DNA of 64,000 bases from Sphaerolaimus hirsutus (Eukaryota > Nematoda > Chromadorea > Monhysterida > Sphaerolaimidae), in assembly GCA_964036195.1 (NCBI GenBank), contig OZ038460.1:7939504-8003503 (forward strand), given 5' to 3'. Made by a program: the position numbers and the translations under genes. Under the pieces are notes generated by a model. It ran no database searches, was not told the origin of the DNA, and was given only the letters and a program-made list of their open reading frames with translations. Position 1 is the first letter of the stretch. Each line of letters starts with the position of its first letter. This document shows, piece after piece, positions 1 through 62,118 of this stretch.

Positions 1-347
1 CGTGAACGAAATGTTTTTAAAAAATTCACAACCATCCGGATCGAGGTAAACAAGGGTTTAACTAAGCGGCCTCCGGGATCGATAGATAGCTGGGCGGTTT
101 GGGGGGGGTAACCCCCCCAATCCCTCATTCGACACCCCTGATGCTCGGTTTTATGCAGCGGTAACAACAACAATCCCACAATATTTTGTGTGTTTTGTCA
201 GGATTTTTCAACGCCGTATTTGTATAAATAGTTGCATACAAGCTTAACATGACATGAATGGACAGAAATTTAGTGCTCGCACTTTCCAAATTATTCGGGT
301 CAACCTAATCAACTCCTCTCAGCAACAACGAGCATCACATCTGCCAG
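1..347. repeat. ELP1 intron end with G/C-run repeat relic
   Basis: Non-coding; this is the intron upstream of the first ELP1 exon in the window. Positions about 60-140 carry a repeat fragment with the words GATAGATAGCTGGGCGG and a G run facing a C run, ending in CGACACCCCTG. The same words recur at 21655-21790, 25508-26030 and 26570-26980, often next to a CAGGGG terminus, so this is one end of a dispersed foldback family. The rest of the stretch shows nothing recognisable. Confidence 0.5.
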
Positions 348-3300
348 CTGCGGCGGCAGCGGCCGCGCCGTGGAACGCGGCAGTCGTCTGGTCGGGGCCG
401 CGCGCGGCGGCACCGGCGTCGTGCTGCAGATGCCGCGCGGCAACTTGGAGCAGGTGCACCCGCGGCCACTCGTCTTGTCCAAGCTGTGCCGTATGCTCGA
501 CCGGCGCATGTACCGCAAAGCGCTGCTGCTCATGACCAGGCACAGGATCAACATGAATTTGGCGTGTGATTTGCAACCGCGGGTGAATTCGAATTACTTT
601 TTCAGTTAATAAAGTGCTATGTGGCACTTGGGGTCCAAACGGGATCATGATCCCGAATCCCGAAAATTTTCGGGGTTTGCGGTCCCGATCCCGAAATCTC
701 ATAGGCGCTACGCACACTGAAGCCGAAATATTCGGCATACGCACGTTTTTGACAAATGCCGAATTAAATGCTGAATAGAAAAAAACTTGCTGAACTCAAA
801 TCGTCCGTACTCTTGAAAATTAGGCGGTTTGTCAATTCAGCATGTATTTCAGCATTCAAAAGATGCGTACACTTTTTCATGCGGAAACCATTCGGCAAAA
901 TCAAATGAAATGTTGAATGCTGATAACGCTCAAATTCGTCCGAATTCGTCCGAATATCGTGCGCACGTTTTCAAAATTCAATATGGCAGCCCCTAAAATG
1001 CCGAATTTAAAACGTCCGAACGGCAATTTTTCAATTCGGATTCGGCAGATGAAAACGTGCGTATGCCGAATATTTCGGCTTCAGTGTGCGTAGCGCCATA
1101 GAAACCAATCCTGATCCCGAAAATCCATACCTGTTTGAACCCTGATGGCACTGAATGATGTTCGTCTGACTTCGCATCTGCTTACTACAGATATTCGAGA
1201 GTGATATTTCGAACTTTGTGAAGGAAGTGGGCGATCCAGATTTACTGAATTTATTTATCGCCGAGCTGAAGTAAGATCCTTTTATGGTTACAGTTTTTAA
1301 ATGTATCATAAAAGCATCTTACTATTTCCTCTCGTTTTGAACAGGGACGAAATTGTGACAGACACACTATACAAGGAGAATCTTCAGTGTATTGATGCGT
1401 ATGCTGAAAACAGTCAAAACAAGTCCTCAAATGCCATTTTGGACAATCTGAGAACTGTTCTAGATGAATTGGTTTCTGGCAACGAGCCAAATGCTCGAAA
1501 ATGGATGAGCTCTCTGATGGTGGCTTATGCGCACAAAACGCCACCTCAACTGGAAGAAGCACTTGATAGGGTCTCGCAGTTCATGCTGGGTGCGCATTTT
1601 TTTGTTTTACCGCTTGCTGGATTAGACATAATTTGGGTGATAAGGATTTTATTCGTCAAAATTCCGACATCAAAATTCGTGTCAACTGAATTCAATCAAG
1701 TCAAATGTGATTTTAACTTTAATATGTGATAGAGCATAGTTTATTTTGTATCGTGACACTTTAATTTTAATCGTTAATTTTCATTGGCCCTGCGCACACT
1801 AGTTTTCACACGAAAATTCGAAAACTGATAAATGAGCTTTGAACGTGTTTGAGTTTTCCACAATGAGTCATTTTGAATCTCCGTCAACTGCAGTTGACGG
1901 CCACTACATTGTAGAAAACTCAAATGCGTTCTAAGCTGATTTATGAGTTTTCGAAATTTCGTGTGAAAACTAGTGTGCGCAGTCACATTGTTTCTGTTAA
2001 GTGTGATGCTTCAAAAAATTGGTGCTATTTAGTTGACATTCAGTTGACACGAATTTGCGATGTCAACTAGTGTGTGTGTGGGCTGTATGAATCAATGACA
2101 TAGCAGTAATCACCCGCAGCTTTTCCCGACGACCAGCGCACAGTGGACGCGTGTCTGCGCCAGTTGGAGTACGTATGCGAGCCGGCAAAGTTGTACAGGT
2201 TCGCATTGGGCACTCACAATTATGACTTGGTGCTCATGCTGGCCGACCGCGCGCAAATGGTCGAGTTTCTCAATTTTTTTAAATTATTTTACTCGATTTT
2301 TATTAATATTTTTTCTCAGGATCCTAAGGAATACCTCCCGTTTCTGAACGAGCTGCGCAGTTTGCCACCCGACTATAGAAAGTACACCATGGAAATGCAC
2401 TTGAATCGACCTCAGCTAGCCCTGCAACATCTTATTCGATGTGCTGGTTTGTCGGAAAATGTCAAATGATACTATTTGTGTTTTGTCTGTGTAAATACAG
2501 ATTAGCCCTGTTTGCAGATGATCATTGGGATGAGCTACTATCTTTCATCCATAAGCATAATCTGCATGCGTCGGCGTTGAAATCTTGCACCGACGAAAAG
2601 CACGCAAAGGTGTGTCCATCCATGACCTGCTTGTGCTTAGAATTTTGTATAGCGGAAGCCCTGCATGTGCATTTCCAAAATCAGATGTTTTTTGCTTTGC
2701 CCACTGGCATCTTGCTGATACTTCATTATTATACCTCGAATTGTAACCTATTCGCTGCACTGTCCATGTATACAGTGAATTCAGTAGCGAGCGCACACTC
2801 AAATGAGCCTTCACGCATTTCATCTGCCATCTGCCGCAGAGTTTGGCGGTGCTGTACGGCGACGTGTTGGCGCAGCGCAACCGGCACGGCGACGCGGCGC
2901 TGGTGCCAATCCCAGACCCTGTAAAACGCTTTGTAAAATGTCAAATACCATGTAAAGTGTCAAAAGTCATGTAAAATGCCCTGCAAAATGACAACCGAGC
3001 ATTTTCCATGACTTTTGACAGTTGCATGACATTTGACATTTTACAGGGCATTTTACAGGGTCTGGGACTGCCCCGAGGTCTACATGCGCGCGGGCGAGTG
3101 CCGACGCGCGGCCGACATGTTCGCGTTGGCGCTCGACCCCGACGGCTTCGCCATGGCCGCCGCCAGAGCGAATGGCCAGTGTGCAGCTAATGATGGTGAA
3201 CTGGTGGACGTGCAGTCGGGACTGCAGCAGATCGCCCTGCAGTGTTCGCACAACGGCAAACATGTGGCCGCGGCGCGCGTGCACGACACTTTTCTAAAGG

Positions 3301-6300
3301 TCGGTGGGTGTTTTATGTCGTGTGTCTATCTAGTAATACTGAGCAAATAAAAACGTACATCTGATATATATATATATATATCCCAGATGTCAAATATCAA
3401 AACAAAATAAAAAATATGATTTTTTAAATACTTCTGCCAGGATTTTCCATGGAAATTTTTCTGAAATTTACCTTTTATACGATTTGCTTTAATACTGATT
3501 TTCCAGCACTCCCCCAACAGGACGGCGTGTCTGCTGCGTCAAGCTACAGCGTATGCGGCGACTGGACGGCGGCTGCCCGGTGCGACCCCCTTGCCACAGT
3601 GCAGCGAGCTGTAGAGCGCGTCGACGCACTGGTGCAACAGCTGCAGCAGCAGGCAAACGACGCGCACGAACACGCGCGCAGGTTGGAACAAGTGCGCCAG
3701 ACCAAGAAGGAGAGACTCAAGCAGATTGTCGATTTGGGTTTGTTCCCTGGTTCTCGTTTTGCACCTTGTTGGCGACAGGCTGGACATGGGTGAACAGTTC
3801 AGAGCTCTGTAAAGTGTAAAGACAAGTGTAAAATGTCGTGCAAACTGTCATACAAATTTGTCATTTTGTTATGCGGTGTCAAAATTTCAAAAAAATCTTC
3901 TTCTTGACCTTGACTTTACACTTTACAGGGCTCGGTACAAAGGTACAAAGTTGACCCAAACTTTGTGAATTTTGCGTGGCAAAGGCCCCACACACACTAG
4001 TTGACATCGACACCTAGTCTCAACTGGTTCATAACCCAATTCCAAGCTTGCATTTGAGCGTCGTTGGTCGGCTCGTGAGAAAACTTTGAATTGTGATGGG
4101 AATCAGTTGACATTTGATGTCGATGTCAATTAGTGTATACTGCGGCGACATTACACATTACAATGAAATCTACCATATCTCATCCGAATAAAAGAACAAA
4201 CATCAAAAAAATTCATCATATTTATCAAATTGCTTCTACTTGGTAATGAGTGATGGAATGTAGTGAGGAATGTAGTGAATTTGGTACAGTTTTTAATGTG
4301 ACCTTATTCATCAAAATATGGCATCATTCATTGTATGGCGATCTCTCCGTCCAGTTTATGTGGGGTAAGCCCAACCACCAACCAGGGTAAGTGACGACAA
4401 CCACCAACTCTCCCAGGCGCCGACCCGTCGGCAATGGACGCTGGCGCTGACGCCTGGTCAGAGTCGAGCGTCACCAGCAGCGCGGCGTCCACCAGCGGCC
4501 GCAGCGGGTTGACAACTAAGTCTAAAGCGGCCGCTGCACGCAAGCACACCACCGCGCACCAACAGACCAGGTGCCAGTCGCAGATCCTGTGAAATGCCCT
4601 GTAAAATGTCAAATGTCATGCACCGAGTTGCCATTTTGCAGGACATTTTACATGACTTCTGACACTTTGCGTGACATTTGACATTTTAGGTGGCATTTTT
4701 CAGGGTCTGGGATTGCCCCCAGGCGACTGCGCCTCAAGGCCGGGTCGCATTGGGAGGATTTGGCCCTGCTGCACGCTATCGCCGACGTGGCCAACTGGGC
4801 CAATGGCGTACAGGGTGCGATACTTGATATTTTGTGGTATTTACACGAGCTTGTTTGATTGCTAGAGGAAAAGGAGTTGCAAAAATCACGAGAGTATGTA
4901 CTTAATCACACTTCATTAGTTTTTGAGGTTTATTTTGTTGGTGTGCATATTTATCTGTGAATGCATGGCATTTTTCAATGGAAACTATTTTTCAATCATG
5001 TGATATTATTTGTCGCGCTCTTAAAATTCTCCCACTTCAATTGAAATTCACTCACAGTGCAATTCACACTCACACAACATCGCACATTCAACACCCATCC
5101 CGCAGCTGAACTGAACAGCTTAGTTCAAGCCCTGGCCCGCCTCGACCAGTGGGCCGCCATCGACCGGCTGCAGTGCGCCGCCGTCGCCGCGCTGGAAACG
5201 ATCGACTGTGCGGTGCACTGCTCGTGGCCGGGTGTGTGGCTGCCGCACATGATGCCGGGACCGTTGGATAAATTGGTGTGTGTGTTTTGTTGTTGTTTTT
5301 TTTTTGGGGGGGGGGGTTGTGAAGTTTTTTCAAGTTGACTTTTTTGCTGGTGGTAGAAAATATTTACCTGAAACACTTAAGGCATACTTTGTGATGTAAT
5401 AATGCTTGTAAGTTGTGATTCATTTATTTGTGTGTTATTTTCTGGCATTAATTGTGTTTGATGGCAATTTTTTGTGCAGTTCGAGCGTGAGATTCCAATG
5501 GAAGGCGCCATGCCCAAGCAAATCGCTATTGGTTGGTTTTTGTTAAATATTTACCGTATTTCCTCGAAATGCCCCCAGGGGGTTTATTTTTTCAGAGTGG
5601 AAATTTTGAGGGGGGTATTTCGAGGGGGGTTTAATATTTCGCCAGAAATTTTACGAAATTCATAGTAGATAGTACGCTTTTATATACCCAAAACAGCTCA
5701 TCAACGTGTCCAAGTAAGGTTTATTTGGACATATCAACGTCCATCGCTACACAAACTAGTATATGTGTATACTTGGCGGACTTGATACTCTGCACTCGCA
5801 CTGATTTATGTCGCACGTTGGAAATGTGCCAACGATAATCAAAGCATGCGATCTTTGTAAAACGATGACAAATTTCGTTGTTGTTAATACATAAACCCAT
5901 AAGATTAAAACTACTATGAATTTTTCAAACTTCTTATTAAAATTGCGCGAGTTAAATTCCTTTGGCACTGTTCCAAAGTGAACCACGCGTGCAAGGTGTA
6001 AAGTCACTGAAGTATAGCTGCGATGCAAACTGCGACCAATACATACATCATTTACTTTGTATACATCATGTACATAATTCCAGACGGGGGGTATTTCGAG
6101 GGGGAGGGTTACTTTTTCCCCAGCTCAAAAACACCTGGGGGTATTTCGAGGGGGGGTTAATTCAAGGGGGAGGGGTAAATCGGGGAAACACGGTATGTAA
6201 TAGAATTTTTTGGCGGCTTGTGGTTTAATATCAACTTTCCCAGAACCTCAAATGGTGCGGCCTGTTTTGCGCATGGACAAAACGTGGATGCTGCACATAG

Positions 6301-6305
6301 TCTGA
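348..6305 (+). CDS. ELP1: Elongator complex protein 1 (ELP1/IKAP), C-terminal half, 5' partial
   Basis: Scaffold subunit of Elongator, the cytosolic complex that starts mcm5U/ncm5U modification of tRNA wobble uridines. Exons: 348-582, 1191-1270, 1345-1589, 2120-2259, 2320-2450, 2501-2609, 2840-2902, 3078-3299, 3521-3737, 4417-4570, 4723-4814, 5106-5275, 5480-5531, 6244-6305 (stop TGA). All phases agree and give about 657 residues. Family signatures are LQMPRGNLE and RINMNL in the first exon, TYDFDLVLM-like THNYDLVLMLAD, DPKEYLPFLNELR, then TPR-like helical repeats. A basic stretch (KSKAAAARKH...) runs into the conserved WEDLALLHAI and corresponds to the basic tRNA-binding region. The segment between the last TPRs and the coiled coil (exon 3521-3737) is shorter than in vertebrates. 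The N-terminal WD40 half lies upstream of the window. Two introns, 2903-3077 and 4571-4722, are introner-like elements. The donor at 2451 (GTCGGA) is weak and was chosen by phase. Confidence 0.95.
704..1097. mobile_element. MITE with 46-bp perfect inverted ends
   Basis: The element starts GGCGCTACGCACACTGAAGC and ends with the exact reverse complement of its first 46 bases. The flanks on both sides read ATA, a possible 3-bp (or TA) target duplication. It has no coding capacity. It lies in an ELP1 intron, inside an older repeat made of CCCGATCCCG-type words (about 640-700 and 1100-1150). The arms are identical, which suggests recent insertion. Confidence 0.8.
1786..1982. mobile_element. MITE, GGCCCTGCGCACACTAG family
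   Basis: Foldback of about 197 bp in an ELP1 intron. The arms begin GGCCCTGCGCACACTAG and return as CTAGTGTGCGCAG. The interior has a second inverted pair around CGAAAACTGATAAATGAG and a central palindrome GTCAACTGCAGTTGAC. Close relatives are at 28724-28924, 14480-14672 and 19151-19363. Confidence 0.8.
2903..3077 (+). mobile_element. Introner-like foldback forming a complete ELP1 intron
   Basis: This 175-bp intron is nothing but a foldback element. Its left arm starts at the donor itself (GTGCCAATCCCAGACCCTG, then TAAAA) and its right arm (CAGGGTCTGGGACTGCCCC, then GAG) ends at the acceptor. Inner arms repeat the words TGTAAAATG, TGTCAAAT and CATGTAAAG in mirror order. The exon junction it interrupts reads ...GCG CTG/GTC TAC ATG..., giving the conserved residues AALVYMRAGE. 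Sister copies are at 4571-4722, 3790-3942, 10515-10671, 12883-13283, 23267-23539 and 56297. Confidence 0.85.
3790..3942 (+). mobile_element. Introner-family foldback inside an ELP1 intron
   Basis: 153-bp copy of the same family. It runs from GTGAACAGTTCAGAGCTCTG to CAGGGCTCGGTACAAAG and is also bounded by GT and AG. The inner arms are TGTAAAGTGTAAAG and CTTTACACTTTACA. It lies 52 bp past the donor of the exon ending at 3737, within a larger intron (3738-4416). Here it may be a plain insertion rather than the intron itself. Confidence 0.7.
3984..4145. mobile_element. MITE, CACACACTAGTTGACATC subtype
   Basis: Foldback of about 160 bp with ends GGCCCCACACACACTAG and the degraded complement TTAGTGTATACTGCGGC. 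The subterminal arms are TTGACATCGACA and TGTCGATGTCAA. It sits in the ELP1 intron 3738-4416. Just downstream, 4141-4370 is a second dispersed repeat whose sister copy is at 8130-8365 (shared words include AATGAAATCTACCATA and ATTCATCAAAATATGG). Confidence 0.6.
4571..4722 (+). mobile_element. Introner-like foldback forming a complete ELP1 intron
   Basis: 152-bp intron coextensive with a foldback element. The left arm at the donor is GTGCCAGTCGCAGATCCTG; the right arm at the acceptor is CAGGGTCTGGGATTGCCCCC, then AG. Internal mirrored words are TGTAAAATGTCAAATGTCATG (split here as TGTAAAATG/TCAAATGTCATG) and CATGACTT/TTTGACATTTTA. The exons join as ACC AG/G CGA within the conserved basic motif before WEDLALL. 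AG/G is a classic proto-splice site. Confidence 0.88.
5552..6195. mobile_element. ACCGTATTT-ended foldback with a nested MITE
   Basis: Element in an ELP1 intron. It opens TACCGTATTTCCTCGAAATG and closes with the complement ending ACACGGTA. It is rich in GGGGGTATTTCGAGG words near both ends. A second element is nested at 5768-6015, with ends GTATACTTGGCGGAC and CACTGAAGTATA; it is related to 31174-31429. Neither codes for protein. Confidence 0.7.
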
Positions 6306-10452: not shown

Positions 10453-12869
10453 ATGAACATGTATTTTTCAAAGGATGAGGCACCATTGTCACCGACAGAC
10501 GTGAGTTCACCTGAATGCAATCCCCGACGCTGTAAAATATTCTGTAAAATGTCAAATGTCATGTAAAGTGTCTAGGCAAAACGTAGGTTTGCCATTTTCC
10601 AAGGCTTTAGACACTTTGCACGACATTTGAGATTTCACAGGGCATTTGACGGGGTATGAGACTGGCAACAGGGCTACTTACATTTTTGCACTTTCTGTGA
10701 ATTTCTTTCTTTCCACTTTACTCTGAAAACTGTCAACTCCACTAAATGTCAACTTTCAGCCGAACGCCGAGTTAGAGCAGCTCGCGTCTCAGCTGGACGA
10801 GCCGGTGGAGCCGTACATCCGCAAGCACCGCAAACGGAAGCAGGGCGCCACGCCGCCCGCCCAGTCCGACATGGACACCACGGCGGGCAAGCGGCAGAAG
10901 GCCAACATGAGCGACGAACAGCTCAATTTGCTTAGATTGAAGATCAACTCGCGGTTGGTGTTTATTTAGTAATGGTAGGGCGGCAGAGTTTCTTTAGCAT
11001 AGGTACAGTCGGTGGACATCACACTTAGTATGGCAACCTACCATAACCCCTGTGAATAATGAACCAAAAAATTATACTGTTTTTCAACATAATATTTATT
11101 TTTAGTCTCTATGGAATAATCAATTACGAAATTTATCACAAGATTTTATACATCTTATTATATTATATTATTATATTATATTATAGATTTTATACAATTT
11201 ATCTGCTCCCGCTCGGTGTATTTACCAGTTTTTAACCCATTTGTAAATTGTCCCACCTCTCGCAGCGAGCGCCGCCGCATGCACGACCTCAACTCGGCCA
11301 TGGACGCACTTCGCTCTTCCATGCCGCACGCAAACGGCAGCGACAAGAAAAGTCCCGCCGCCGGCGGCAGTAGGAAACTGTCCAAGATCAGCACACTGTT
11401 GCTAGCGAAGAAGTACATCGAGTCGCTGATGAGCGCCGTGGCAGAAATGGAGAAGCTTTGCGAGCAGGCGGGCAAAAGTGAACATGCCAAAGCTATAGTG
11501 CAGGCGATGCTGCTGGAACAGGTTGGTTGACGGTTCAATTTTGATGAAATCGGATTTTGGGGGTGCCGCAATGCCAGTAACACTTTTTATGGCACTTCCA
11601 CTTATTTGCCGTCTTGGTGTTGACAATAAACACCATAAATAGCACTTATTTGAAGCTAACTGCCAAATATGCAAAAATAGCAGGCACACATCCATTTTTT
11701 TCTAAAATACAGTGAATCATCAGCCAAGATAAATACGTTTTCTCCACTCGGATAGTTTAAAAAGTATACGTCAAACTAATTAGGTATTTTATGTTGCAAG
11801 TACTTTTTGAAGGAAACATAATGGTTACTCTGTATCCGAGTCTACTTTGAACTAAAACAGTAAACGCATTTAAACTATGCAGTGTCCACATCTTCCACAC
11901 AAGTGACTCTCAACTAGGCAACTTTCCGACTTCCGAAGGCAGAATTTTCACCACTCTGTTTTCCGGCAGTTGAAAAATTTCACCTGTCCGTTTTCCGTAA
12001 AATCACCCTTCTACACCCAACTCTCCACCCGCAGACGACCGAATTCGACCGTCGCACATCATCAGACAACGCCAGCAGCGTGACGCCGCAGCCAACCACG
12101 GCGGCCAAGGGCAAGGCGCGCGGCAACGCGACAAGCACACAAGCGAGCGGCAGCAGCGGCGACGACGCGCACAGCCGCAGGTCGTCCACCAGCGGCGGCA
12201 GTTCCGAGCCGGAGGCTTGCACCAACAGCCACAGCAGCCAGCAGCATGCCAATAATCTGTCCATGTCAGTCAGTCGCCTGCTGGCCCAGCGGGGAAAAAT
12301 GACTCACAGGTGGGAATTGTGGACTGCAGTGCACTGCTTTTTGAGGTTCATCAGCAAAGTATTCCGAGTGGAGCACATACTTTGCGAAGAATAACACCGT
12401 AATTTAATGAATGTAATCTTGTGTTAAATGTCGTTATTAATTAATCATTAGCAAAAACGAAATATCATGATGAAAAACTGTATGATTTTTGATTCCTTAT
12501 TCAAATGGGTAGGTTACCATACTAAGTCTGACGCCCGCCGACTATATTGCCACTCAACGCAGGCCACAAATCAGCGCCGCCGCCGCGCAGCCGCCGCCAC
12601 CTCCCCCAATGCACGCCGCATCGGCGCTCGGAGTACCAGCCGGACTGCCGCACGGCGCCTGCCTCAAGTTGTATCTGGGCGCGGCGGCCCCGTGCGCCTG
12701 CGACCGGTGCTGCGCGGGCGCGTCCGCCTGGCACGTGGCCCTGTCGCAGCTGGCCGCCGCCGCCGCCCGGCCGCTTTACGCCGGTGTGCCTCATGGCGGC
12801 GCGGCGGCCCTTGCCGCGGCTGGATTGCTGGCGCACAGAGATGCTGGCGTGACTCTTGGAGCTAAATAA
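10453..12869 (+). CDS. Olig: Olig-family bHLH transcription factor
   Basis: Nuclear E-box-binding factor of the Olig/bHLHe22 group; in animals these specify neurons, glia or muscle-associated cells. Exons: 10453-10500, 10760-10953, 11266-11521, 12035-12309, 12563-12869 (TAA); 359 residues. The basic region [17 protein letters not shown] and helix 2 [16 protein letters not shown] are diagnostic for the Olig subfamily. Unusually, the loop carries an extra stretch of about 10 residues ([11 protein letters not shown]) before RKLSK, where Olig proteins are normally compact. The middle is Ser/Thr/Gly-rich. The C-terminus is Ala/Pro-rich and holds a Cys cluster, PCACDRCC. The exon 1 start is the first in-frame ATG ([16 protein letters not shown]). 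Intron 1 holds an introner-family element 14 bp past its donor. Introns 2 (11003-11190) and 4 (about 12391-12540) hold MITE copies. Exon 1 is short and less certain than exons 2-5. Confidence 0.9.
10515..10671 (+). mobile_element. Introner-family foldback in bHLH intron 1
   Basis: 157-bp copy. The left arm is ATGCAATCCCCGACGCTG, then TAAAAT; the right arm is GACGGGGTATGAGACTGGCA, then ACAG. Inner mirrored words are TGTAAAATGTCAAATGTCATG (cut as TGTAAAATG/TCAAATGTCATG) and CACGACATTTGAGATTTCACA. It starts 14 bp after the GTGAGT donor of intron 1. The family GT at its left end reads AT here, so it may have lost or never used its own donor. Confidence 0.72.
11003..11192. mobile_element. MITE, CGGNGGACATCACACTTA family, with ATT microsatellite
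   Basis: Copy in bHLH intron 2. It starts near ACAGTCGGTGGACATCACAC, followed by a CAACCTACCATA block and AATAATGAACC. The right part dissolves into a TTATA/TTATAT simple repeat (about 11155-11190). Sister copies are at 57036-57211, 44746-45184, 21401-21556, about 12391-12540 and about 45545-45715. Confidence 0.6.
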
Positions 12870-12882
12870 GTGATGTGATCAG

Positions 12883-13283
12883 GTGGCAGTTTTAGACCCT
12901 GTAAAATGTCAATGTTATGCAAAGTGCCAAAAGTAATGCAAAGTGTAAAAAATTCATGTAATGTGCCTACACACACTAGTTTTCACCGTGACTTCGTGTG
13001 AAAACTGAATTTTTTTCAAATGCAAATTAAAAACGACGGTTGAATGATTTGATTTGATTTAAATTTGAGTTTAGATAAATGATAGCTAAACATTGAAAAT
13101 TTTAAAACTAAAACACATAAAGCATACAAAATGAGTAGGCTGGATGTCGCCATGTCGCCATTTCAGTTTTCACATCAGTCACGGTGAAAACTAGTGTGTG
13201 TAGGGCCATTATGTTATGAAAAATGTCTAACGTCCGGTAAAGAAATTAATTTGACATTTTTCAGGGTCTGCTAGCGGCCCCAG
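12883..13283 (+). mobile_element. Introner-family element, possible 3'-UTR intron of the bHLH gene
   Basis: It starts 14 bp after the bHLH stop codon with CAG/GTGGCAGTTTTAGACCCTG and ends ...CAGGGTCTGCTAGCGGCCCCAG/GT. It is therefore bounded by GT and AG and flanked by AG and GT. It is 401 bp long, but 245 bp of that is a younger MITE at 12964-13208. The remainder is 156 bp, the normal size of the family. Whether it is spliced from the 3' UTR cannot be seen from DNA. Confidence 0.72.
12964..13208. mobile_element. MITE, TGCCTACACACACTAG family, nested in an introner
   Basis: 245 bp. The ends are TGCCTACACACACTAG and CTAGTGTGTGTAGGGCCA, and the subterminal arms are TTTTCACCGTGACTTCGTG and CACGGTGAAAAC. 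Nearly identical copies lie at 20270-20507 and 43946-44184, so the family moved recently. It is non-autonomous. Confidence 0.85.
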
Positions 13284-19378: not shown

Positions 19379-20886
19379 TAGTGATGGTAAGGAACCGGGG
19401 CACCGGTGCTGGTGCGGTGCGGTGCCATTTTTCAGCGGTGCCCTGCTGGTGCCGGTGCCATTTTTTTCAGAATAGCACCGGTGCCGTTGCGGTGCGGTGC
19501 CATTTTTTGGCCGGTGCCAAAGGTGCTAGCACCAGAACGAATTTAAAAAGCACCGGAAAGGCACTGGCCAAGTGTTCATAGAGTGTAAAATTTTGTCCAC
19601 GGCACATGCTTACCGTATTTCTTTGATAATATTGACCACCAATGTGTTGTTTCATAAACAGTTTTGGGGGGTCAATGTAATCAAGCACGGCAATGTAAAT
19701 GAGCATGGCAATATATTTTTCCAGATTGTATTTATCATTTAAGTGCATTCAGTGATATAAGTGCAAATCATTGCTAATTTGTGACATAACGCTGCACAAT
19801 ACCATATGAGTAGATAGTGAAGGCAAAACATAGGCAGAACAGACGGTGTGCAATGTATGGCGGCAAACATCTAAACATAAATCGGATCATGCAATGTCAA
19901 CGTTTTCATACGGCAATGTATTCGAGCACGGCAATGTATTTCTCAGATGCTCTTTAGACCCGCCAAAGTAATCGAGCAAGCCAATGTGAATGAACATGTC
20001 AATAAGATCGAAGAAATACGGTATTCATATTTTAAAAACAACAACAATATGCCCAACAGTTTTCCATCTCATTTCAAAAAATGTCACAATAAATATATTT
20101 TGAAAGCTGCTGTACCATTCTGAAGAGGGAAACAAAAATCGAGTTGTATTTTTCATCATAAAAATTATTTCCTTCACCAGTTTGTTCATAATTTGTTGTC
20201 AATTTATGACAGAAAACAGTTACATAACTAGTGATCCCAGTGAGTAAACCATAGTGACTATGTGTATTGTGCCTACACACACTAGTTTTCACCGTGACTT
20301 CGTGGGAAAACTGATTTTTTTAAAAATGCAGATTAATCAACACGGTTGAATGATTTTATTACATTTTAATGTGAATTTAAATTAATGAAAGTTTTAATTT
20401 GATAAATTTGAAAACTAAAACACATATAGCATACAATAACAGTAGGCTGGATGTCGCCATTTCAGTTCTCACAGAAGTCACGGTGAAAACTAGTGTGTGT
20501 AGGGCCATTGGAGCATATTAAATATTGGAACTATCCTTCGTAATCATTATAATTGCTTCATAAAATGATCACCACCTTATTCTGATTATTTTAAATGCTC
20601 AACCATCAAAATCGGTTAAGAACTTATGGAAATATGCAGTTCTGAAGCTGCGGCCTCTATGAAAAATACCTGATAAATAATGCAGAAACTTCCAGCCTGG
20701 TGCAGTGCCTTTCAGTGCTAGCACCGGCAGCCGGCCGGTGCCCCAGGGTGCCGGTGCTATTTTTTTCAAAATGGCGCCGGTGCGGTGCCATTTTTTGGCC
20801 GGTGCCCATGGTGCCAGGTGCCCTTTCTGAGGAATGGCACCGGTGCCGGTGCGGTGCCATATTTCCCGGTGCCTTTTCCATCACTA
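19379..20886. mobile_element. hAT-type foldback with GGTGCCGGTGC word repeats and nested elements
   Basis: 1.5 kb. The ends are TAGTGATGGTAAGGAACCGG and TTTTCCATCACTA, with an exact 8-bp target duplication CCCATGAC on both sides. Both ends are dense in GCACCGGTGCC-type words. Nested inside are an ACCGTATTT foldback (19611-20023, with CGGCAATGTA words) and a CCTACACACACTAG MITE (20270-20507). This gives an insertion order: hAT element first, the other two later. Confidence 0.8.
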
Positions 20887-23142: not shown

Positions 23143-23619
23143 ACTCATCAGACATGATACTCTACAAATAGATATGATTTATGTTTTCGGCTGGCAGACC
23201 ACAGCCAACCGATAACTTATGAGCCGACCCCCCACACCACTCCACTTCATCCCAACTCCAAACCGGGTCAGGGGGGGTCCCAAACCCTGTAAAATTTAAA
23301 GTAAAGTGTAAATTGTGTATCCAAATCTTATTTTTCATATCCAAAACTTATGTTTTTGTATCCAAATCTTATGTCGAAAAAAATATTTGGATACAAAAAC
23401 ATAAGATTTGGATAAGAAAAATAAGATTTGGATACACAATTGACACTTTACTTCACATTGTACTTTACATTTGACTTTGCATTTCACTTTACATTTGACA
23501 CTTTACTTGACACTTTACAGGGCTTGGGATTACTACCAGTTACTGTGAACTGCGGTTATGACGTCATGATGGAGTGTTACCCCCAGAAAAATGTAGGCTG
23601 TAATGTCGCCCGAGTATAC
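23143..23619. mobile_element. MITE interrupted by an introner-family foldback
   Basis: The outer element matches 9523-9739 at both ends (CAGACATGATACTCTACAAA; TGTAATGTCGCCCGAGTATA). It is interrupted by 23267-23539, a foldback of the introner family. The left arm contains TCCCAAACCCTGTAAAAT, the right arm is CTTTACAGGGCTTGGGATTA, then CTACCAG, and it is again GT...AG bounded. The centre of that insert is a palindrome of TTGGATA/TATCCAA words (about 23315-23445), which makes it 273 bp. Confidence 0.65.
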
Positions 23620-24087: not shown

Positions 24088-52018
<27,931 letters not shown>

Positions 52019-52909: not shown

Positions 52910-55900
52910 ATGAGTGGCAATAGAAAAGTAAAACACAGTGGCTCATTGCGAAGTGATCAACCGCTACCGAAGAGGCAAAAAAGCAGCGCAGATGCGAGCG
53001 CCACCGCCACCACGACTAGCACGGTGCATTTTCGAAGACATGTAAAATATACATATAGTCGGCAGACATGATATTACACAGGTTTGGTCCACTTATGTTT
53101 CGCTTCGCTGAGCGTCAATGAAATTCAACATCTTACTGAACAGCGAAGTGCGATACATCTTAAATACGGTAGAAAAACGGTGCACAGTGGGTCGTAAATA
53201 TGTCAATATGTATAGTCGACAGACATATCATTCTACAAAATTGGAAAGTTATATTTTGTTCTTGTAGAGCGAACGAGAAAGGAATTTAGTAAAAAAGAAG
53301 ATATAAAGATAGTAAGAAGGAAAATAAAAATGTGCTGTTCTTTACGCACTCGTTTACTCTAATTTTTGTGCCGATAGGTGCTGCAAATTTTTGATTATAC
53401 GTTTACCTACGTTTAATCTAATTCATATTTAGAAAAGTTACACGCTATCGATTCATTTTGACGAAAACTTGTTACGTTCAAAATTTTGAATTCAGAAAAC
53501 GTTCCCGCTTTGTATTTATTCAGATCCAGACGACGCTTGGATGGCATCATGCCAAAAAACTCAACTACACTTTGACGGGGGTTTGAATTGTGCGGGCACA
53601 ATTGAATAGTTTCATTCCGTATATGCGTAAGCACGAGTCACCAAAACAGAGTTCTACGGGTTGGATACAGCGTGCATGATATGACATCATGCAACTCATT
53701 GTATAGTATCATGTCTGCCGAGTATACCTACTTGTTTGAGAAGCACGAAAAGTTACACATGTCTGGCTTGTTAGGTCACATAAAGATACTTACAGCAAGT
53801 AAAGTGGTATATTCTGGATGAAAATTGATGCATTCGATGTGATACAAAAATAGTGCAAAATTGCACTTGCCACAGGTGGGAATCGAACCCGGAATGAAAA
53901 ACATTTTGTACGTTTTCCATGCTGACGCTCCACAAATCGCTTCACGGTTGCCGATGCCAAGATAAACTGTGCAAATGTAACCTGTAAAGCCGGAATTACA
54001 GCTCAGCGGCGTTTGACGTGAAATGATGACGTCGTAAAATTGATTACATCAAGATAGACAAAGGTACAGCATTGAAATTTCAGAATTAGATAGTTCTAGT
54101 AATTGTGTGTAATGTCCCACAAAAAATTTATCAAATAATCATTATTTAAGTAGTTATTAATTTAACGTCAAAATTTTTTTGGTGACGTAAAATGTTTGAC
54201 GTGAAATGTTGACGTAGAATGTGTAAATTTTGACATAAATTAATAACTTATTAAATAATAATTATTTTCTTAAATTTTTTTAGGACATTACACACTATTA
54301 CTAGAACTATCAAATTCTGAAATTTCAACGCTGTACCTATGTCTATTTTGATGTAATCAATTTTACGACGTCATCATTTGACGTCAAACGCCGCTGAGCT
54401 GTAATTACGGCTTTATGTAATGTAAATGTGCAAATGCAAATGTTACCTTAATGTAACCTACCAATCTACGGGAATCCCTGTAATCAGCAGAAAAGCTGCT
54501 CCGCGTCGGCGTCGGAACCGCGCGACGGCAGGAAAGTGAGGGCGAAAAAAGCCCCCGTGCCGCCCGCCGCTAAACAGTCTAGCAAATCTTCCAGCAGCAC
54601 GACCAGACGCAAAAACGACTCCAAGGAAAGGCTGAGTGGCGAGAAAAAGGTACTGATACTGTATTGAACTTGATAGTGTATTACCGACAAATAAGGCGTC
54701 CAATTCTAAAAGTCGACAAGTGCAAAATATGAAAATTGCGAGTTAGGCCCGGAAACGTCATCTGGGACTACGTACTCCCGCACATTTTTCATCATTTTCC
54801 ATAAATTTTTTGACCTCACATGCCTATATACGATCATGTCAAATTTGAAATTTTTTTGGGAAAAATGCAAAAAAAATTGGGCAAGAAGTCGGCAAGTCCA
54901 CCGAGTTTTGGGCTCAAAGTCCGTTCTCCGCATCCTTTTTATGGGAAAAAACGCAAGTCCACTGTCGACACAACTCCAAAGTCCACTGTGGACACCGATG
55001 ACTAAAAGTCGACAAGTCCATAAATTGCCCATAAGGCATCCTCCTCCTCCCTGGGAACAAAAATGTTTTCGAGTGCAAGAAGTCGACAAGTCCATTTCCC
55101 TCCCCGAAACAGTTTTGCTCTGACCAAATGGAATTTTATGGACACGCCATTTTTCACTATGTGGAGAGCAGGGGCTGAAAATTTAACACTTTCTGGTCAA
55201 CATTTGGAACTGCGAGAGACAAATTGGACACGCACCGCGGGCCTGGAATTGTGTCTTAAACTTAAAATGTGATTTACTCAAAATCGCATTTTGTGGACTT
55301 GTCGACTTTTAAAATTACCTAGACGCCTCAAATGTAGGCATACCTACAATAAAAGGTGTAATTTTGATATTTTTGAATGTGATAAAAGGCGCAGTTAGCT
55401 GTTTTAACTGCAGAGTTGTCAAAAGTACCGAACGTTTTCATAGTACATACGTAAATGTAATACCGTATTTACTCGAATAGTTCCCCCGGAGAATTATTTT
55501 TTCCTCACTCGCCTAACAGGGGGAACTATTCAAGTGGGGGGAACTATTCAAGTAAATACGGTATTTATGTTTTACTCATCCACTGAGTACAGCAAACGTA
55601 AAGTAATTTTTTATACTTTTACTCATGAGTAACTTTTTCCCCAGAAAACGTAAAATTAAGTATTTTTGAAAATTTTGCACCATTTTTCAAAATCAAAAGC
55701 ACTAATTTTTTATATATTTTTTGCCAATTATTACATTCAAATTAGCTTATTTTTAGCCTTTTTGGCTTTTATATCTACCCATTTTTGGCTATTTTTAGCT
55801 TTTTTTCACCCTATTCTCGCTTCCATGCCTTCAAAAACCTACATAGGTAATTGCCTATCAGAAATACGTTTTCTGTACTCGACTACTGTTCTACTTTCAA

Positions 55901-58900
55901 AAAGTATACGTAAACGCGAGTACAGGAACTTTTTTTAGAGGAAACCTAAACGTATTTACTGTGTACTCGAGTAAACGAACCTATATCTAGTAAAGTAAAC
56001 GCGTTATAACAACTATGGTTTTAAGCACTAGGCAGTGCTAAGCAGTACCATACGATCCAATTTTACTTGACTTGGCTGAGGCGGGACTTGCATATCACAG
56101 CGGCCGGACGGCTACAAAGGTCACAAAGGTGCGGCAGCGTTAAATAGACAACAAGCGCAAGGGTCTATGCGTTTCGACGTTCCCGCGACCATACACCAAC
56201 CTGCACCGGCCTCCTCCAGCACTTCGATCATGTCTGGCACCGCGCCAGATCCCGTTTCTAAGCAGCCATCCAGCTCATCAGGTGCCACGCCAGTCAGTGC
56301 AAACGTAGCGACACCCTGCAAAATGTAAAATGTCATGTTAAATGTCCGAAATGTTTTTTCAATGCTGGATGTTGCAGTTTACATGACACGTAACATGACA
56401 CCTAACCTAAAATGAAAATATGCATGGTTAGAAAAAAATTGAAAATTACATACCGTATTTCCTCGAAATACCCCCCGGGGGGTGATTGTTTCATAGTGGT
56501 CCCGAGAGGGGGGGTATTTCGAGGAAATACGGAAATAGTAGATCGATGTTTTGGTGTTATCTCTGGTCTTCTCACAGGTGTGGAAATTCGACACTACATT
56601 TGCGTTATTTCAAGTCATTGACCATCTATCATTGCATTCGATTGTGAATGCTAGGTTGGGGACATCACAGGGACCCCACATTCAATTACACTCCGTGCAC
56701 AATTTCACGCGCCTACTCTCGTTTCGGGCACCTTAAATCCCATTAACTCCGCCCCCCAGTGGACCGGGGCAGGAAGCAACGGCAGGCGAAGCACGGCCAA
56801 CAGCGACCGAGCACCAGTTCGATGACGCCCGCCGACGGGGGCGACACGTCGGCGAGCGCGGACGACAGCGGCAAGCCCATGCTCAAGCCGGCCAAGGAGA
56901 GCGAGACCGGCACCAAGACCAGGAACTGGCTGGATAATCAGGTAGGTTGACTGTGGTCGTGGTGGGGCACGTGATGCGACAAACTGCCACTGGGGGATAG
57001 TTAAGAGGATGCACCTATTTTTACTAAAAAGTCTCATACTCGGCGGACATCACACTTATATGGAAACCTACCATAGCCCATCTGAATAATGAACCAAAAA
57101 TTATACAGTTTTTTTCATTATAATATTTTTTTTTAATTTATTAATCACGAAATTTATCACAAGATTTGATTCATTAAATTATGGTAGGATTCTGCGGTCC
57201 GCGGAGTATACCAAGTAAATACGTTTACGTTTCCATCCCAAAAAGTAGGTACACTTGTGCTTGGGCAGGCAAAATGAGTACACAAAACCTAATTTCTTTA
57301 ACTACCTATTTCCTCGAATTACCCTCGGCGGGGTTATTTTTTCATAGTGAAAATTTTAAGGGGGTTGAAACGAGGGGGTATTTCGGGGGCTTATTTCAAG
57401 GAAATACGGTATTCTTTTTGGGGAATATCATTAAAATCTTTCATTTCCTCATTACATCAAAATCCCACGCAATGGCAAGCATGGCACAAACAACCACTAT
57501 GCACAGCCGTTCTACCACGGCATGCTGCCGCGGTCGTGCGTGGAGCGGGCGCTGGTGCAGCGCGGCGACTGGCTGGTGCGCGCCACCGACCGGGGCAAGC
57601 GCATCCGCATCGTGCTGTGCCTCAAGCTGGCCGACGGCGACCGCGGCGAGGTGGCCCACTACGCCCTCGAGTACGGCCAGGCGGGCACGCCGCACGCCGG
57701 CAAGGTACGTCCTTGTTTGGTTCGGAAACCAGCATTGCGGAGTCGTTATTACTGTGCACTGCAAACATCAACACCTTGAAAGTTTATATATATATATATA
57801 TATATTTTATATACCTATATACATTTTTGTGCAGCATAGCATCACACTGAACCCAGAGTACCGACGCACAAAAATTACAAATAAATTATAAATAAATTAC
57901 CTTTGATAAACCTAAAATTACCTTTATAAACCTAAAATTACATTTTTTACAACGCCAGCACGTTAAAACATTTGGGGATTTCAAAATTCATTTTGGATTT
58001 CGCGTATGCATTTTTAGATCAAAAAAGTCTACTTTTAGTCTTTAACTTTTAGTCTACAGCACGCATGCACATTTTGCGAACATCAACGCAGGTGCGGCTG
58101 GAAAACAGCAAACCGTGGTACCGAGACATAGCGCACTTGATCAGCACGTTTCAAAAGCACCCGCTCACTGGACAACCCAGTCCGCTAGGCTTGAAGCGGC
58201 CCATTGGCAGGCCCAGCTACCTGTTGGCAAGTTGCCATGTAAAAAGGGAGTTCAAAGTGGGCCATGGCCAGTTTGGGGATGTGTACAAGGGCAAGGTTGG
58301 TTTTGCGTTGATGATTTGAAATGCGTGTAGTTTGTGGAGAGTGGAGACGTCATAAATAGCGCCAAGTTCCACGGTTATTGTAGTCTAGTAAACATCAAAT
58401 AATGCCGGCACTAGTTGACAACCGAAACTTTCAAAGCTGAAAATATGCTATAAAAACATTTGAGTTTGGTAGCGTGGGGACGATAAAAAATGAATCGTTG
58501 TGGTAAACTCAAATGTGGTTAAAACAAACATTAGTTTGAGAAATTTGGGTTGTCAACTTGTTTTCGCAAACGTTCCAACCTTCCAACGTCTCCCTTGAAA
58601 ACTTAGACCATTCCACCCAACCTCCCAGGTGCTACAACGAAAGGAGGGTGACGAACGCTGGCTGGACTCCGCGATCAAAGTTTCGCGGACGCACGAGCGC
58701 CACCGACTGTCGCCCGAGGACCGAGAGAAGGCCATGCACGAGGCCGAGGTCATGCATGGACTGCTGCACAAGAATGTAGTGCAGCTGATTGGAGTGGCTT
58801 GTGATACGCCGCCCTTCCAGATTGTGCTCGGTATGGTTGGAATGTTTTTTTTACAAAAAAAACACATTTGTTCGTGAAGAAGTTCCCTTGGCACTGGCAG

Positions 58901-60601
58901 TTACCGTAATCCTCGAATAACCCCGGGTGATGAAAAATAACCCACCTCTAGTAAAAACTCCACACCCAAAAACTTCTGACGAAAAAATAACTCCCCTGGG
59001 GTCTTATTTGAGGTTATACGGTATTTTTGCCAGACAATGTTGATGGAGAGTGAGCATAACACAGAATGGTGCGTTGGTGGCTCTCTGGACACGCGACTGA
59101 AGAAAAAGCCGCAGTTGAGCCTCAAACAAAAGCATCAAGTTGTCGTTGACGTGGCATCAGGTATGAACTACCTAGCGAGCAAAAGCATCGTGCACAATGA
59201 TTTGGCTGCCAGAAATTGTTTGTTGGATGCTGATGGATGCGCCAAGGTGTCCGATTTTGGCCTGTCTGCCATTGAGTCAGAATTGGTCAGTCGCGTTTGT
59301 GCAATAGTAATATTGAAAACAGTTTTCTGCTTTTACTTTTCCGTAAATTTATGAACTTTTGCCTCACTGCAAACTAGTGATGGCCGGGTTTTTTGCCAAA
59401 GGTTTTAAAAACAACACTTTTTTTGATAAAACCCTTTCTTTAAAAACAGGTCGTTGAAAAAACAACTACAAAGTTTTGTTTCATCACTGCCAACAACAGA
59501 ATCGCAATCAATTCGCGCATGCAGGTGGGTAGAAAGCAACTGGCGTCTCACCTGCCAATCCGATGGCTCGCACCCGAAACTCTGCGGCGCCAGCCACGAT
59601 ACAGTGCTCAGTCTGACGTGTGGTCGTTCGGCGTGCTCATATGGGAAGTGTACATGGATGGCAACAAGCCCTGGGGCGAGAAGCTCACCAACAGAGAGGT
59701 CATAAAGAAGGTATCAACGAGCTTGCCTTGTTTTTAAAGTGGTATACAATTTGGCGATTGAATGAGATTCGAGACATGACCATGATTACCGTATTTCCTC
59801 GAAATACACCCGAAAATTTGTCAGAGTTTAAATTTTGAGGGGGTATTCCGGGGGGGCTTATTCGAAAGGGGTTTTGAGTTTTCACCAGAAATTTTCGAGA
59901 CGGATCGTAGCAAAGATGGTCTTTTCCATACCCAAAACTGGTAATAAACGTGATAAAACAGGATATATTTTGACATAGAAGGCTACACAAACTAGTCTGT
60001 GTGTAGCTGCGATGCATATTGGCAACAATTGATAAAATACATCATGTACATTGCATCCATGATGTACCTTATTCCAGATGGGGGAATTTCGAGGGTCGTT
60101 ATTTTCCCCTCAGCTCGAAAAGACCTTGGGGTATTGCGACGGGGGTCATTTTTTGGGGGGTATTTCAAGGGAGGGGGGCGTTAATTCAAGGGATATTTTG
60201 AGAAAATAGAGCGAGTTGAACAAATTGCAAAACTGATAAAGAATGAAAGTCCACGTCTGAACAGGGTGAATTGACCAAATCGAAATGACTTGCAATTAAA
60301 GCAATAACATACCTAATTTTACATTTCCAAGCAATTCCTCAAAAACGTCAACCCCCCACCCCAATCCCAGGTGAAAACCGAGCGACTGACAGTGCTCGAC
60401 TACCAAGCACTTCCAGCAGACACGCCAGTCATCGTAGTTCGGACGACGCGCGCGTGCCTCGCCCACAACCCGGACAAGCGGCCCGCCTGGACCGAGATGT
60501 GCGCCAAGCTCAACGGATTGGTCGTTCCGGGAGACACTAGTGCAGAGTCGGAACAGTTAGTGCTGGATGTTTTGTGTGCTTGGGGTGAGAACATTGTGTG
60601 A
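52910..60601 (+). CDS. SH2 domain non-receptor tyrosine kinase, Fer/Fes-like
   Basis: Cytoplasmic protein-tyrosine kinase. Exons: 52910-53023, 54491-54649, 56101-56296, 56760-56941, 57507-57704, 58092-58295, 58629-58830, 59065-59285, 59525-59710, 60371-60601 (TGA); about 630 residues, phases closed. Residues 1-217 are basic and Ser/Lys-rich low complexity (no F-BAR). The SH2 domain (about 218-310) starts FYHGML and keeps the phosphotyrosine Arg in DWLVRAT. The kinase has a GHGQFG loop (about 340), Lys368 in SAIKV, Glu389 in HEAEVM, catalytic Asp464 and Asn469, DFG 482-484 and WLAPE. Two oddities: the HRD motif is HND (Arg463 to Asn), and the activation loop between DFG and APE has no tyrosine. 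The layout resembles nematode Fer-like (SPE-8/KIN) kinases. The N-terminal exons 1-3 are less certain than exons 4-10. The donor GTGCAA after exon 3 was chosen because it alone gives the right phase. Confidence 0.9.
53053..53727. mobile_element. Foldback with TCGGCAGACATGATA ends in kinase intron 1
   Basis: 675 bp. It begins TATAGTCGGCAGACATGATA and ends TATCATGTCTGCCGAGTATA. An internal copy of the terminus occurs at about 53213 (TATAGTCGACAGACATATCA). It is related by its ends to 9523-9739. Confidence 0.65.
53872..53960 (-). other. tRNA-like / SINE-like Pol III promoter relic
   Basis: Read on the minus strand, it contains GGGTTCGATTCCCACCTG, a good B box (GGTTCRANNCC), about 50 bp after GTGGAGCGTCAGCATGG, which resembles an A box. 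A folded acceptor stem and clear anticodon arm are not evident, so this is more likely a tRNA-derived SINE fragment than a functional tRNA. Confidence 0.35.
53990..54415. mobile_element. About 420-bp near-perfect palindromic MITE
   Basis: The arms begin GCCGGAATTACAGCTCAGCG (left) and end CGCTGAGCTGTAATTACGGC (right). They stay complementary for most of the length; other paired blocks are GATTACATCAAGATAGACAA with its mirror at about 54336 and TAGTTCTAGTAATTGTGTGT with its mirror at about 54292. The centre is built from TTTGACGT/ACGTCAAA words. It ends 75 bp before kinase exon 2. Confidence 0.8.
55461..55563. mobile_element. Short ACCGTATTT foldback with GAACTATTCAAG words
   Basis: 103 bp. 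The ends are TACCGTATTTACTCGAATAG and TATTCAAGTAAATACGGTA; the interior repeats GGGGGAACTATTCAAGT. It is nested in a region of ACGTAAA words (about 55411-56015) that itself has hAT-like ends (CAGAGTTGTCAAAAG; ATAACAACTATG). Confidence 0.7.
56297..56410 (+). mobile_element. Degenerate introner-family element at the start of kinase intron 3
   Basis: The intron starts GTGCAAACGTAGCGACACCCTG, here split as GTGCAAACGTAG and CGACACCCTG, followed by CAAAATGTAAAATGTCATG. This aligns with the family left arm (GTGCCAATCCCAGACCCTG, TAAAATG). A partial mirror, GTTTACATGACACGTAACAT, lies at about 56377. The intron's own 3' end (56748-56759, CCGCCCCCCAG) also resembles the family right end. Later insertions (56451-56532) separate the two, so the whole intron may be an enlarged introner. 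Confidence 0.55.
56451..56532. mobile_element. 82-bp ACCGTATTT minimal foldback
   Basis: TACCGTATTTCCTCGAAATA ... TATTTCGAGGAAATACGG around GGGGTGATTGTTTCATAGTG. It is the shortest complete copy in the window and sits in kinase intron 3. Related copies in this gene and just after it: 57303-57411, 58902-59023, 59787-60209 and 60814-60978. Confidence 0.75.
57036..57211. mobile_element. MITE, ATACTCGGCGGACATCACAC family
   Basis: Best-preserved copy of this family (176 bp), in kinase intron 4. The left end is ATACTCGGCGGACATCACAC and the right end is CTGCGGTCCGCGGAGTATAC. Subterminal arms are GGAAACCTACCATA and TATGGTAGGATTC. Confidence 0.7.
59787..60209. mobile_element. ACCGTATTT-type foldback in the last kinase intron
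   Basis: Starts TACCGTATTTCCTCGAAATA and fades at GGGATATTTTGAGAAAATAG. It carries GGGGGTATTCCGGGG and ATTTCGAGGGTCG words at both sides and is older than 56451-56532. It lies in the intron between 59710 and 60371. Confidence 0.55.
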
Positions 60602-61864: not shown

Positions 61865-62075
61865 GGCGACGTGCAGCGGCAGCGGGCCATCCGCCCGCGA
61901 TTCGATTGCGCGTGCCGGCAGCGACCTGCGGCGGCCGCTAGCGCGTGCGACGCGCAGCGGCACGGCGACGTGCAGCGGCAGCGGGCCATCCGCCCGCGAT
62001 TCGATTGCGCGGGCCGGCAGCGACCTGCGGCGGCCGCTAGCGCGTGCGACGCGCAGCGGCACAGCGGCGTGCAGC
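61865..62075 (+). repeat. 99-bp tandem repeat in the retrotransposon leader
   Basis: Two full units (61865-61963, 61964-62062) and the start of a third. The full units differ at very few bases. The period is 33 codons, but in the gag frame each unit contains a TAG (for example 62038-62040), so the repeat lies in the untranslated leader. Confidence 0.85.
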
Positions 62076-62118
62076 GGGCCGGGCTGATACAGCGCGGGTC
62101 CGCATTCGGGCGGACTCG

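Follow-up and report, generated by a model that had tools for sequence, protein, structure and literature searches.

Introners, DNA elements that create introns on insertion, have been found in 175 of 3,325 genomes, with only two animal groups among them, and some families carry the 5′ splice site and take the 3′ splice site from the target-site duplication (PMC9860276). We describe such a family, first recognized in a 64,000-nucleotide stretch of DNA (the window; C16:7939504-8003503 of a 348.5-Mb animal genome assembly in 762 contigs) in which two introns of the gene ELP1 each consist of one foldback element and one copy of its target duplication. Like the surveyed introners, the family shows similar introns at many unrelated sites, terminal inverted repeats (TIRs), short target-site duplications, and splice sites shared between element and duplication. 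Unlike them, it co-opts a 3′ site that is AG or TG about equally often, whereas the survey, where it treats splice sites, notes rare GC and GA donors and no TG acceptors (PMC9860276).

Other described systems share parts of this design. The alga Micromonas CCMP1545 has 31 GT-TG introners (25 IE-B and 6 IE-D members), which resemble the present family in being repeat introns with GT-TG splice sites; the Introner Elements section of that report describes no mixed AG/TG family, hairpin or CWG duplication (PMC3879977). Single GT-TG introns occur in human genes (PMC4176328). The introner elements of Amoebophrya likewise have inverted repeats that bring the two ends together by folding, direct repeats of 3-5 nucleotides and non-canonical borders. 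However, the Amoebophrya borders vary widely and U1 was, by that account, not found (PMC7789003), whereas the present family keeps GT almost throughout and alternates mainly between A and T at the last-but-one base. In the animal Fritillaria borealis, introns break the AG rule and their non-canonical 3′ ends are read by divergent paralogues of U2AF (PMC13326754); the present genome also has introns that seem to break this rule, and two U2AF1 loci. The palindromic CCWGG target is shared with Harbinger3_DR, whose target is AAACACCWGGTCTTT (PMC3016246).

The sequence-only reading of the window had claimed that ELP1 introns 2903-3077 (175 nucleotides) and 4571-4722 (152 nucleotides) are each exactly one foldback, with given left and right arms. 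The single element and its arms stood; the exact equality did not, as the last three bases of the intron are a target copy and not arm. Each intron is thus one element plus one copy of a 3-base-pair (bp) target duplication. The features are as follows:

274-6303, plus strand: C-terminal region of ELP1, with exon positions assigned from homology
2900-2902, plus strand: upstream copy of the target triplet, CTG, at the exon end
2903-3077, plus strand: ELP1 intron made of one introner copy (element G2903 to C3074 plus the 3′ target copy, 3075-3077)
2903-2921, plus strand: left arm, with the GT donor at its tip
3056-3074, plus strand: right arm, 0 mismatches to the pattern
3075-3077, plus strand: downstream target copy, now GAG, serving as acceptor
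4568-4570, plus strand: upstream copy of the target triplet, CAG
4571-4722, plus strand: second ELP1 intron made of one introner copy
4571-4589, plus strand: left arm, with the GT donor
4701-4719, plus strand: right arm, 0 mismatches to the pattern
4720-4722, plus strand: downstream target copy, CAG, serving as acceptor

The two insertion sites were unlike, being CTG|G for the first intron (duplication now CTG/GAG) and CAG|G for the second (CAG/CAG). Judged from the target logo, the final triplet GAG of the first intron has probably changed from CTG; the second intron ends in an intact CAG. The right-arm pattern, with up to three mismatches, had 4 matches in the window against 0.01 expected: the right arm of each intron, one of the left arms and, at 23271, a diverged relative. 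Predicted folding energy was -93.5 kcal/mol for intron 2903-3077 (z -15.05) and -69.6 kcal/mol for intron 4571-4722 (z -8.91), and in neither case was any shuffled sequence equally stable. A C-terminal ELP1 model assembled from the window exons was compared with solved structures and matched Elongator complex protein 1 with E 1.3e-66. The junction peptides GDAAL|VYMRAG and HQQTR|RLRLKAG were both ungapped in this alignment, in agreement with the earlier claim that frame and conserved residues rejoin on removal of the elements; a one-residue gap lay about six residues upstream of the second junction, within a poorly conserved stretch. The other ELP1 acceptors, placed by homology, were AG in 11 of 11 cases.

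The genome-wide arm search that the sequence-only reading had called for revealed a large family. Arm pattern CAGGGTCTGGGAYTGCCC, allowing two mismatches, had 17,666 matches (8827 + 8839), compared with 24 (10 + 14) for the reversed pattern used as control. These are counts of arms, and the copy number of the near-identical elements is probably on the order of ten thousand. The 18-mer arm had 1 match in IMG/VR and 23 in GTDB genomes, which by rough estimate is about chance level for an 18-mer in such collections. We then sampled 90 loci, 30 from each of three pattern searches (some at the same place), which together with the window gave 82 distinct element readings, among which L026- and L083- are antisense readings of elements already listed and a few look composite. 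The contig 1 copies showed an apparent strand bias, which was rejected as a listing artefact: in other searches this stretch yielded many copies on the minus strand.

Nearly all 82 readings followed one design, with target NCWGG, duplication of CWG and GT at the left tip. The left end TGCCARTCCCAGACCCTG is preceded by CWGG, the right end CAGGGTCTGGGAYTGCCCC is followed by CWGG, and every CWGG flank base was kept in 73 to 80 of the readings. The end sequences for TIR comparison were GTGCCARTCCCAGACC and GGGGCARTCCCAGACC. Agreement between the two flanks at the central W was 0.72 against 0.45 expected, whereas the next base outward agreed no more than expected (0.55 against 0.59). Because W covaries and the outer base does not, we take the duplication to be CWG, the target to be NCWGG and the element to start with G; a fixed 5-bp CCWGG duplication was ruled out on the same grounds. 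The insertion at AG/G-like sites suggested earlier is accordingly replaced by a palindromic CCWGG target with CWG duplication; roughly one copy in two has CTG there and so presents no AG at that position. The ends are asymmetric, with GTGCCA at the left tip and GGGGCA at the reverse-complemented right tip; therefore, the GT donor is carried by the left tip. It is near-constant, the flank G being kept in 80 of 82 readings and the element T in 79 of 82. The outer arms were paired in 70 of 72 introns of up to 300 nucleotides, and 127 of the 136 upstream AGs in the last 60 nucleotides lay within stems.

A codon model was built from 1196 codons of the ELP1, leucine-rich-repeat protein and kinase exons of the window, with three ELP1 blocks beside the introners excluded. 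The best frames of left and right flanks were chosen independently, with a coding threshold of 6. After two antisense readings, four near-duplicate copies and the two window copies had been dropped, 74 of the 82 readings entered the test (39 AG-ending and 35 TG-ending). Exact removal of the intron kept the frame in 21 of 22 AG-class copies with both flanks coding and in 17 of 20 such TG-class copies, where chance is one third. When the right flank was shifted by one or two bases, the frame was kept in 1/22 and 0/22 copies of the AG class and in 3/19 and 1/19 of the TG class.

Orientation was examined with Pfam, for which the best-scoring joined sense and antisense peptides of 20 AG-class and 20 TG-class copies were used; frames were picked by the codon model in each orientation, and misses may reflect a wrong frame. 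Nine of the 40 sense peptides (six TG-class and three AG-class) and none of the 40 antisense peptides matched above the curated cut-off. Below the cut-off, there were five sense and two antisense matches. The match spanned the junction in all six TG-class cases and, among the three of the AG class, in STAG only. An orientation control by codon score, with an independent model and 80 readings, gave a clearly higher sense score in 48, a higher antisense score in 16 and neither in 16. This control is weak, as exons rich in GC score on both strands and some of the 16 exceptions are clearly sense by homology (STAG, ZIP); Pfam was used instead. The proposal that a non-autonomous DNA transposon creates introns in this genome is borne out by the arm matches, the duplication and its target, the frame continuity and the exclusively sense matches above the Pfam cut-off. 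Across unrelated genes, introns and elements share their borders, as seen from frame agreement and from Pfam and PDB matches across junctions, and TIRs are accompanied by a target duplication. By these comparisons, it is well supported that the elements are introners, that is, frame-preserving introns in coding exons.

The acceptor of each copy is the duplicated triplet, which ends in AG at CAG sites and in TG at CTG sites. Genome-wide exact counts at the right end, coding or not, were 601 for CAGG, 661 for CTGG and 56 with C or G in that position. At the left end, where the corresponding base is exonic and free, CAGG numbered 1377 and CTGG 1228. The share of A was thus 48% on the acceptor side and 53% on the donor side, the two ends being counted on different copies; AG is therefore not enriched on the acceptor side. 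The GT donor is that of canonical U2 introns, and the AG acceptor is found in the AG class only and not family-wide.

Several TG-ending copies lie in conserved genes. On exact removal, the junction was ungapped in CNOT9 (105 residues, E 1.2e-53), in the Na/K-ATPase alpha subunit (L083; E 5e-41) and in arginyl-tRNA synthetase (RARS1; E 6e-28), all compared with PDB; in BCKDHA (E 1e-14, also PDB), the only gap was distant from the junction. The TG class does not consist of dead genes. Left-arm mismatches of 18, a rough proxy of age, were 1.28 in coding-supported AG copies (n 25) and 1.18 in TG copies (n 22). A BCKDHA-like gene at L079 (contig 1 near 8335219) has two introners close together, one ending in CTG and one in CAG; by eye, the peptide joined across the CAG-ending copy resembles the same BCKDHA-like enzyme.

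Two copies of an amino-acid transporter gene (L074 and L077; Pfam Aa_trans, 5e-21 for L074) are separated by about 31 kb on contig 1, and each carries a TG-ending introner in the same position. Between the two copies, the element has 21 differences in 188 sites. In the joined exons there are 7 differences, all at third codon positions, and 0 amino-acid changes in 105. Both copies thus appear to have been under purifying selection while the intron diverged by 11%, although gene conversion of the exons would be an alternative. Because purifying selection persisted through this divergence, TG-ending insertions would not all be short-lived.

We consider it likely, on the sequence evidence above, that these introners are non-autonomous miniature inverted-repeat transposable elements (MITEs) that insert at CCWGG, duplicate CWG and would be spliced at their exact borders, with the AG dinucleotide dispensable. 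Insertion in the sense direction would give exon-CWG|GTGCCA...GCCCC-CWG|G-exon, in which the left tip supplies the 5′ splice site and the duplicated CWG past the right arm supplies the 3′ splice site, AG or TG according to the target. The near-perfect hairpin would set the two ends side by side and bury most internal AGs. With these AGs hidden and the true borders held together by the stem, the spliceosome, the presumed agent of removal from RNA, could finish at either AG or TG. That the hairpin frees the family from the AG rule in this way is a more tentative proposal, to which we give somewhat less than even weight. It would mean that the 3′ site is the duplicated CAG or CTG, that both are removed with similar success and that GT-TG introns number hundreds or more, possibly aided by the duplicated U2AF1.

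Several observations weigh against free use of TG. By length, with stop codons disregarded, 17 of 20 supported TG copies contain one or more in-frame GT-AG pairs. In L074, L077 and L083 the tip GT and an AG 18 nucleotides before the end are in frame and would add six residues; the L074/L077 pair is consequently no proof of the TG end, the AG being part of an AAG at that distance. In the full-length sample unselected for flanks (24 of 30 places), coding-supported copies were 8 AG and 3 TG. Coding-supported copies with left T and right A outnumbered those with left A and right T by 7:1 (9:4 with the rest included; p 0.07 for 7:1), an asymmetry that hints at pressure toward AG and may reflect a slow replacement of TG ends by AG. 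In coding flanks CTGG exceeds CAGG 1.7-fold (61:36; 12:10 for CCWGG), so that a moderate shortage of TG copies could be masked by the equality of AG and TG counts. The in-frame GT-AG pairs and the 8:3 sample, together with the AG at every other placed ELP1 acceptor, favour an explanation in which the AG copies are real introns and the TG copies either are spliced through AG sites elsewhere or are harmful insertions that do not last. We regard this explanation as unlikely. Genome-wide AG and TG counts are about equal, the age proxy is similar in the two classes, and L074 and L077 seem to have stayed under purifying selection as their introns diverged. The commonest AGs of the right half, 19 and 31 nucleotides before the end, cause a frameshift with the tip GT. 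Internal splicing with the arms kept in the mRNA was rejected for this reason, the three copies with the in-frame AG at 18 nucleotides excepted; for these, the mildest alternative adds six residues or removes four. The in-frame alternatives in TG copies would cost the protein two or more residues, or else add or replace three or more, and 3 of the 20 supported TG copies had no in-frame GT-AG pair in the searched range. In CNOT9, use of the in-frame pairs would mean the loss, replacement or addition of several residues within or at VKTDEQE, a near-invariant stretch.

The other explanations concern the agent of removal or the order of events. Hairpin-guided removal that is independent of the spliceosome, as proposed for the nonconventional introns of euglenids or for Amoebophrya, would suit an intron that is a single stem and borders that depart from GT-AG in about half of the copies; we think it improbable, as the sense bias and near-invariant GT tip suit the spliceosome and ordinary ELP1 introns end in AG. 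Excision of DNA in the soma or early development, like that of ciliate internal eliminated sequences, would leave one CWG and account both for the indifference to AG or TG and for the precise restoration of one target copy. However, it expects orientation independence in exons, which was not found in the Pfam comparison of 40 elements, and the left tip is GT in nearly all copies; we regard it as very improbable. Finally, MITEs might have landed inside ordinary pre-existing introns, and some relatives do sit in larger introns (e.g. 3797-3938). For the two ELP1 introns this is contradicted because each consists of the element and duplication alone, and the supported copies also contain nothing in the intron beyond these; as an explanation of the family, it is scarcely credible.

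PIF/Harbinger elements make a 3-bp CWG duplication. The same duplication at a CCWGG target, as expected of a PIF/Harbinger MITE, was found here, and by target and duplication only the family resembles PIF/Harbinger. No transposase with these TIRs was found: none of the 90 loci showed an autonomous partner with introner ends. Nine of these loci lacked a clear left arm, and most of the nine showed a degenerate small element. The genome contained 163 matches to the PIF/Harbinger transposase domain DDE_Tnp_4, many of equal score (e.g. C1:20514088-20514720), which are probably a recent burst. A 651-bp piece of one of these copies had two short, ordinary-looking introns and no introner arm. A literature search joining "introner" and "Harbinger" gave one paper, with a single mention of Harbinger.

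Two U2AF1 loci were present, at C14:3032343-3038004 and C16:15183258-15191469. Exon by exon, the C14 protein was 67-73% identical to its human counterpart, and the locus had a near-identical copy on contig 720; the C16 protein had a divergent middle (38%) and conserved-looking zinc fingers. The duplication is a lead, not evidence, for use of TG acceptors. Contig 762 is the mitochondrial genome (14,754 bp, 17% G+C) and was read with the invertebrate code. At COX1 sites that we take to be conserved, AGA fits Ser, not Gly, and AAA fits Lys. Presumably, by the code tables, this argues against a tunicate, echinoderm, flatworm, sponge or cnidarian host. Unlike in Fritillaria borealis, ordinary ELP1 introns here end in AG, the zinc fingers of both U2AF1 proteins look conserved, and the host, by its mitochondrial code, is not a tunicate.

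The window also contained relatives of the family:

3797-3938, plus strand: diverged foldback relative inside a larger ELP1 intron, not the whole intron
10501-10681, plus strand: diverged foldback relative near a basic helix-loop-helix (bHLH) gene
12880-13283, plus strand: older copy of the family with CAG/CAG flanks, interrupted by a different MITE (12959-13211)
23271-23535, plus strand: diverged relative with GGGTCCCAAACCCTG/CAGGGCTTGGGA arms

Between its arms, relative 23271-23535 holds another inverted repeat, TATCCAAATCTTAT, unrelated to the first. The MITE that splits the older copy has three copies (12959-13211, 20272-20503 and 43948-44180) with near-perfect ends CCTACACACACTAGTTTTC(A/G)CCGTGAC; because copy 12959-13211 sits inside an older introner-family copy, the relative age of the two families can be read from it. 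A foldback at 704-1097 with perfect 46-bp ends (GGCGCTACGCACACTGAAGCCGAAATATTCGG...) lies inside an ELP1 intron, and MITE 1790-1982 has CGCACACT near its start, as does this foldback. By eye, 5550-6200, 55459-55565 and 56450-56535, which contain TACCGTATTT(A/C)CTCGAA as well as C and G runs, seem to represent a further dispersed repeat family, and an intron stretch of the second U2AF1 locus (L119) is similar to this repeat. Other genes of the window encode a bHLH protein (PF00010; 11120-11527), a leucine-rich-repeat protein (42793-45900) and a protein tyrosine kinase (57435-60600). An exon upstream of the kinase is SH2-like by eye, and a 653-residue open frame running off the window (62041-63999) is Gag-like by eye; neither had a Pfam match.

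Introners are a leading proposed source of new introns, and a large animal family would make the birth of introns testable in a metazoan. Its TG half has the greater significance, as a natural experiment in which one element in one genome has copies that differ mainly by A or T at the last-but-one base of the intron. It would allow the relaxation of the AG rule to be measured, and would show whether RNA structure can replace that rule.

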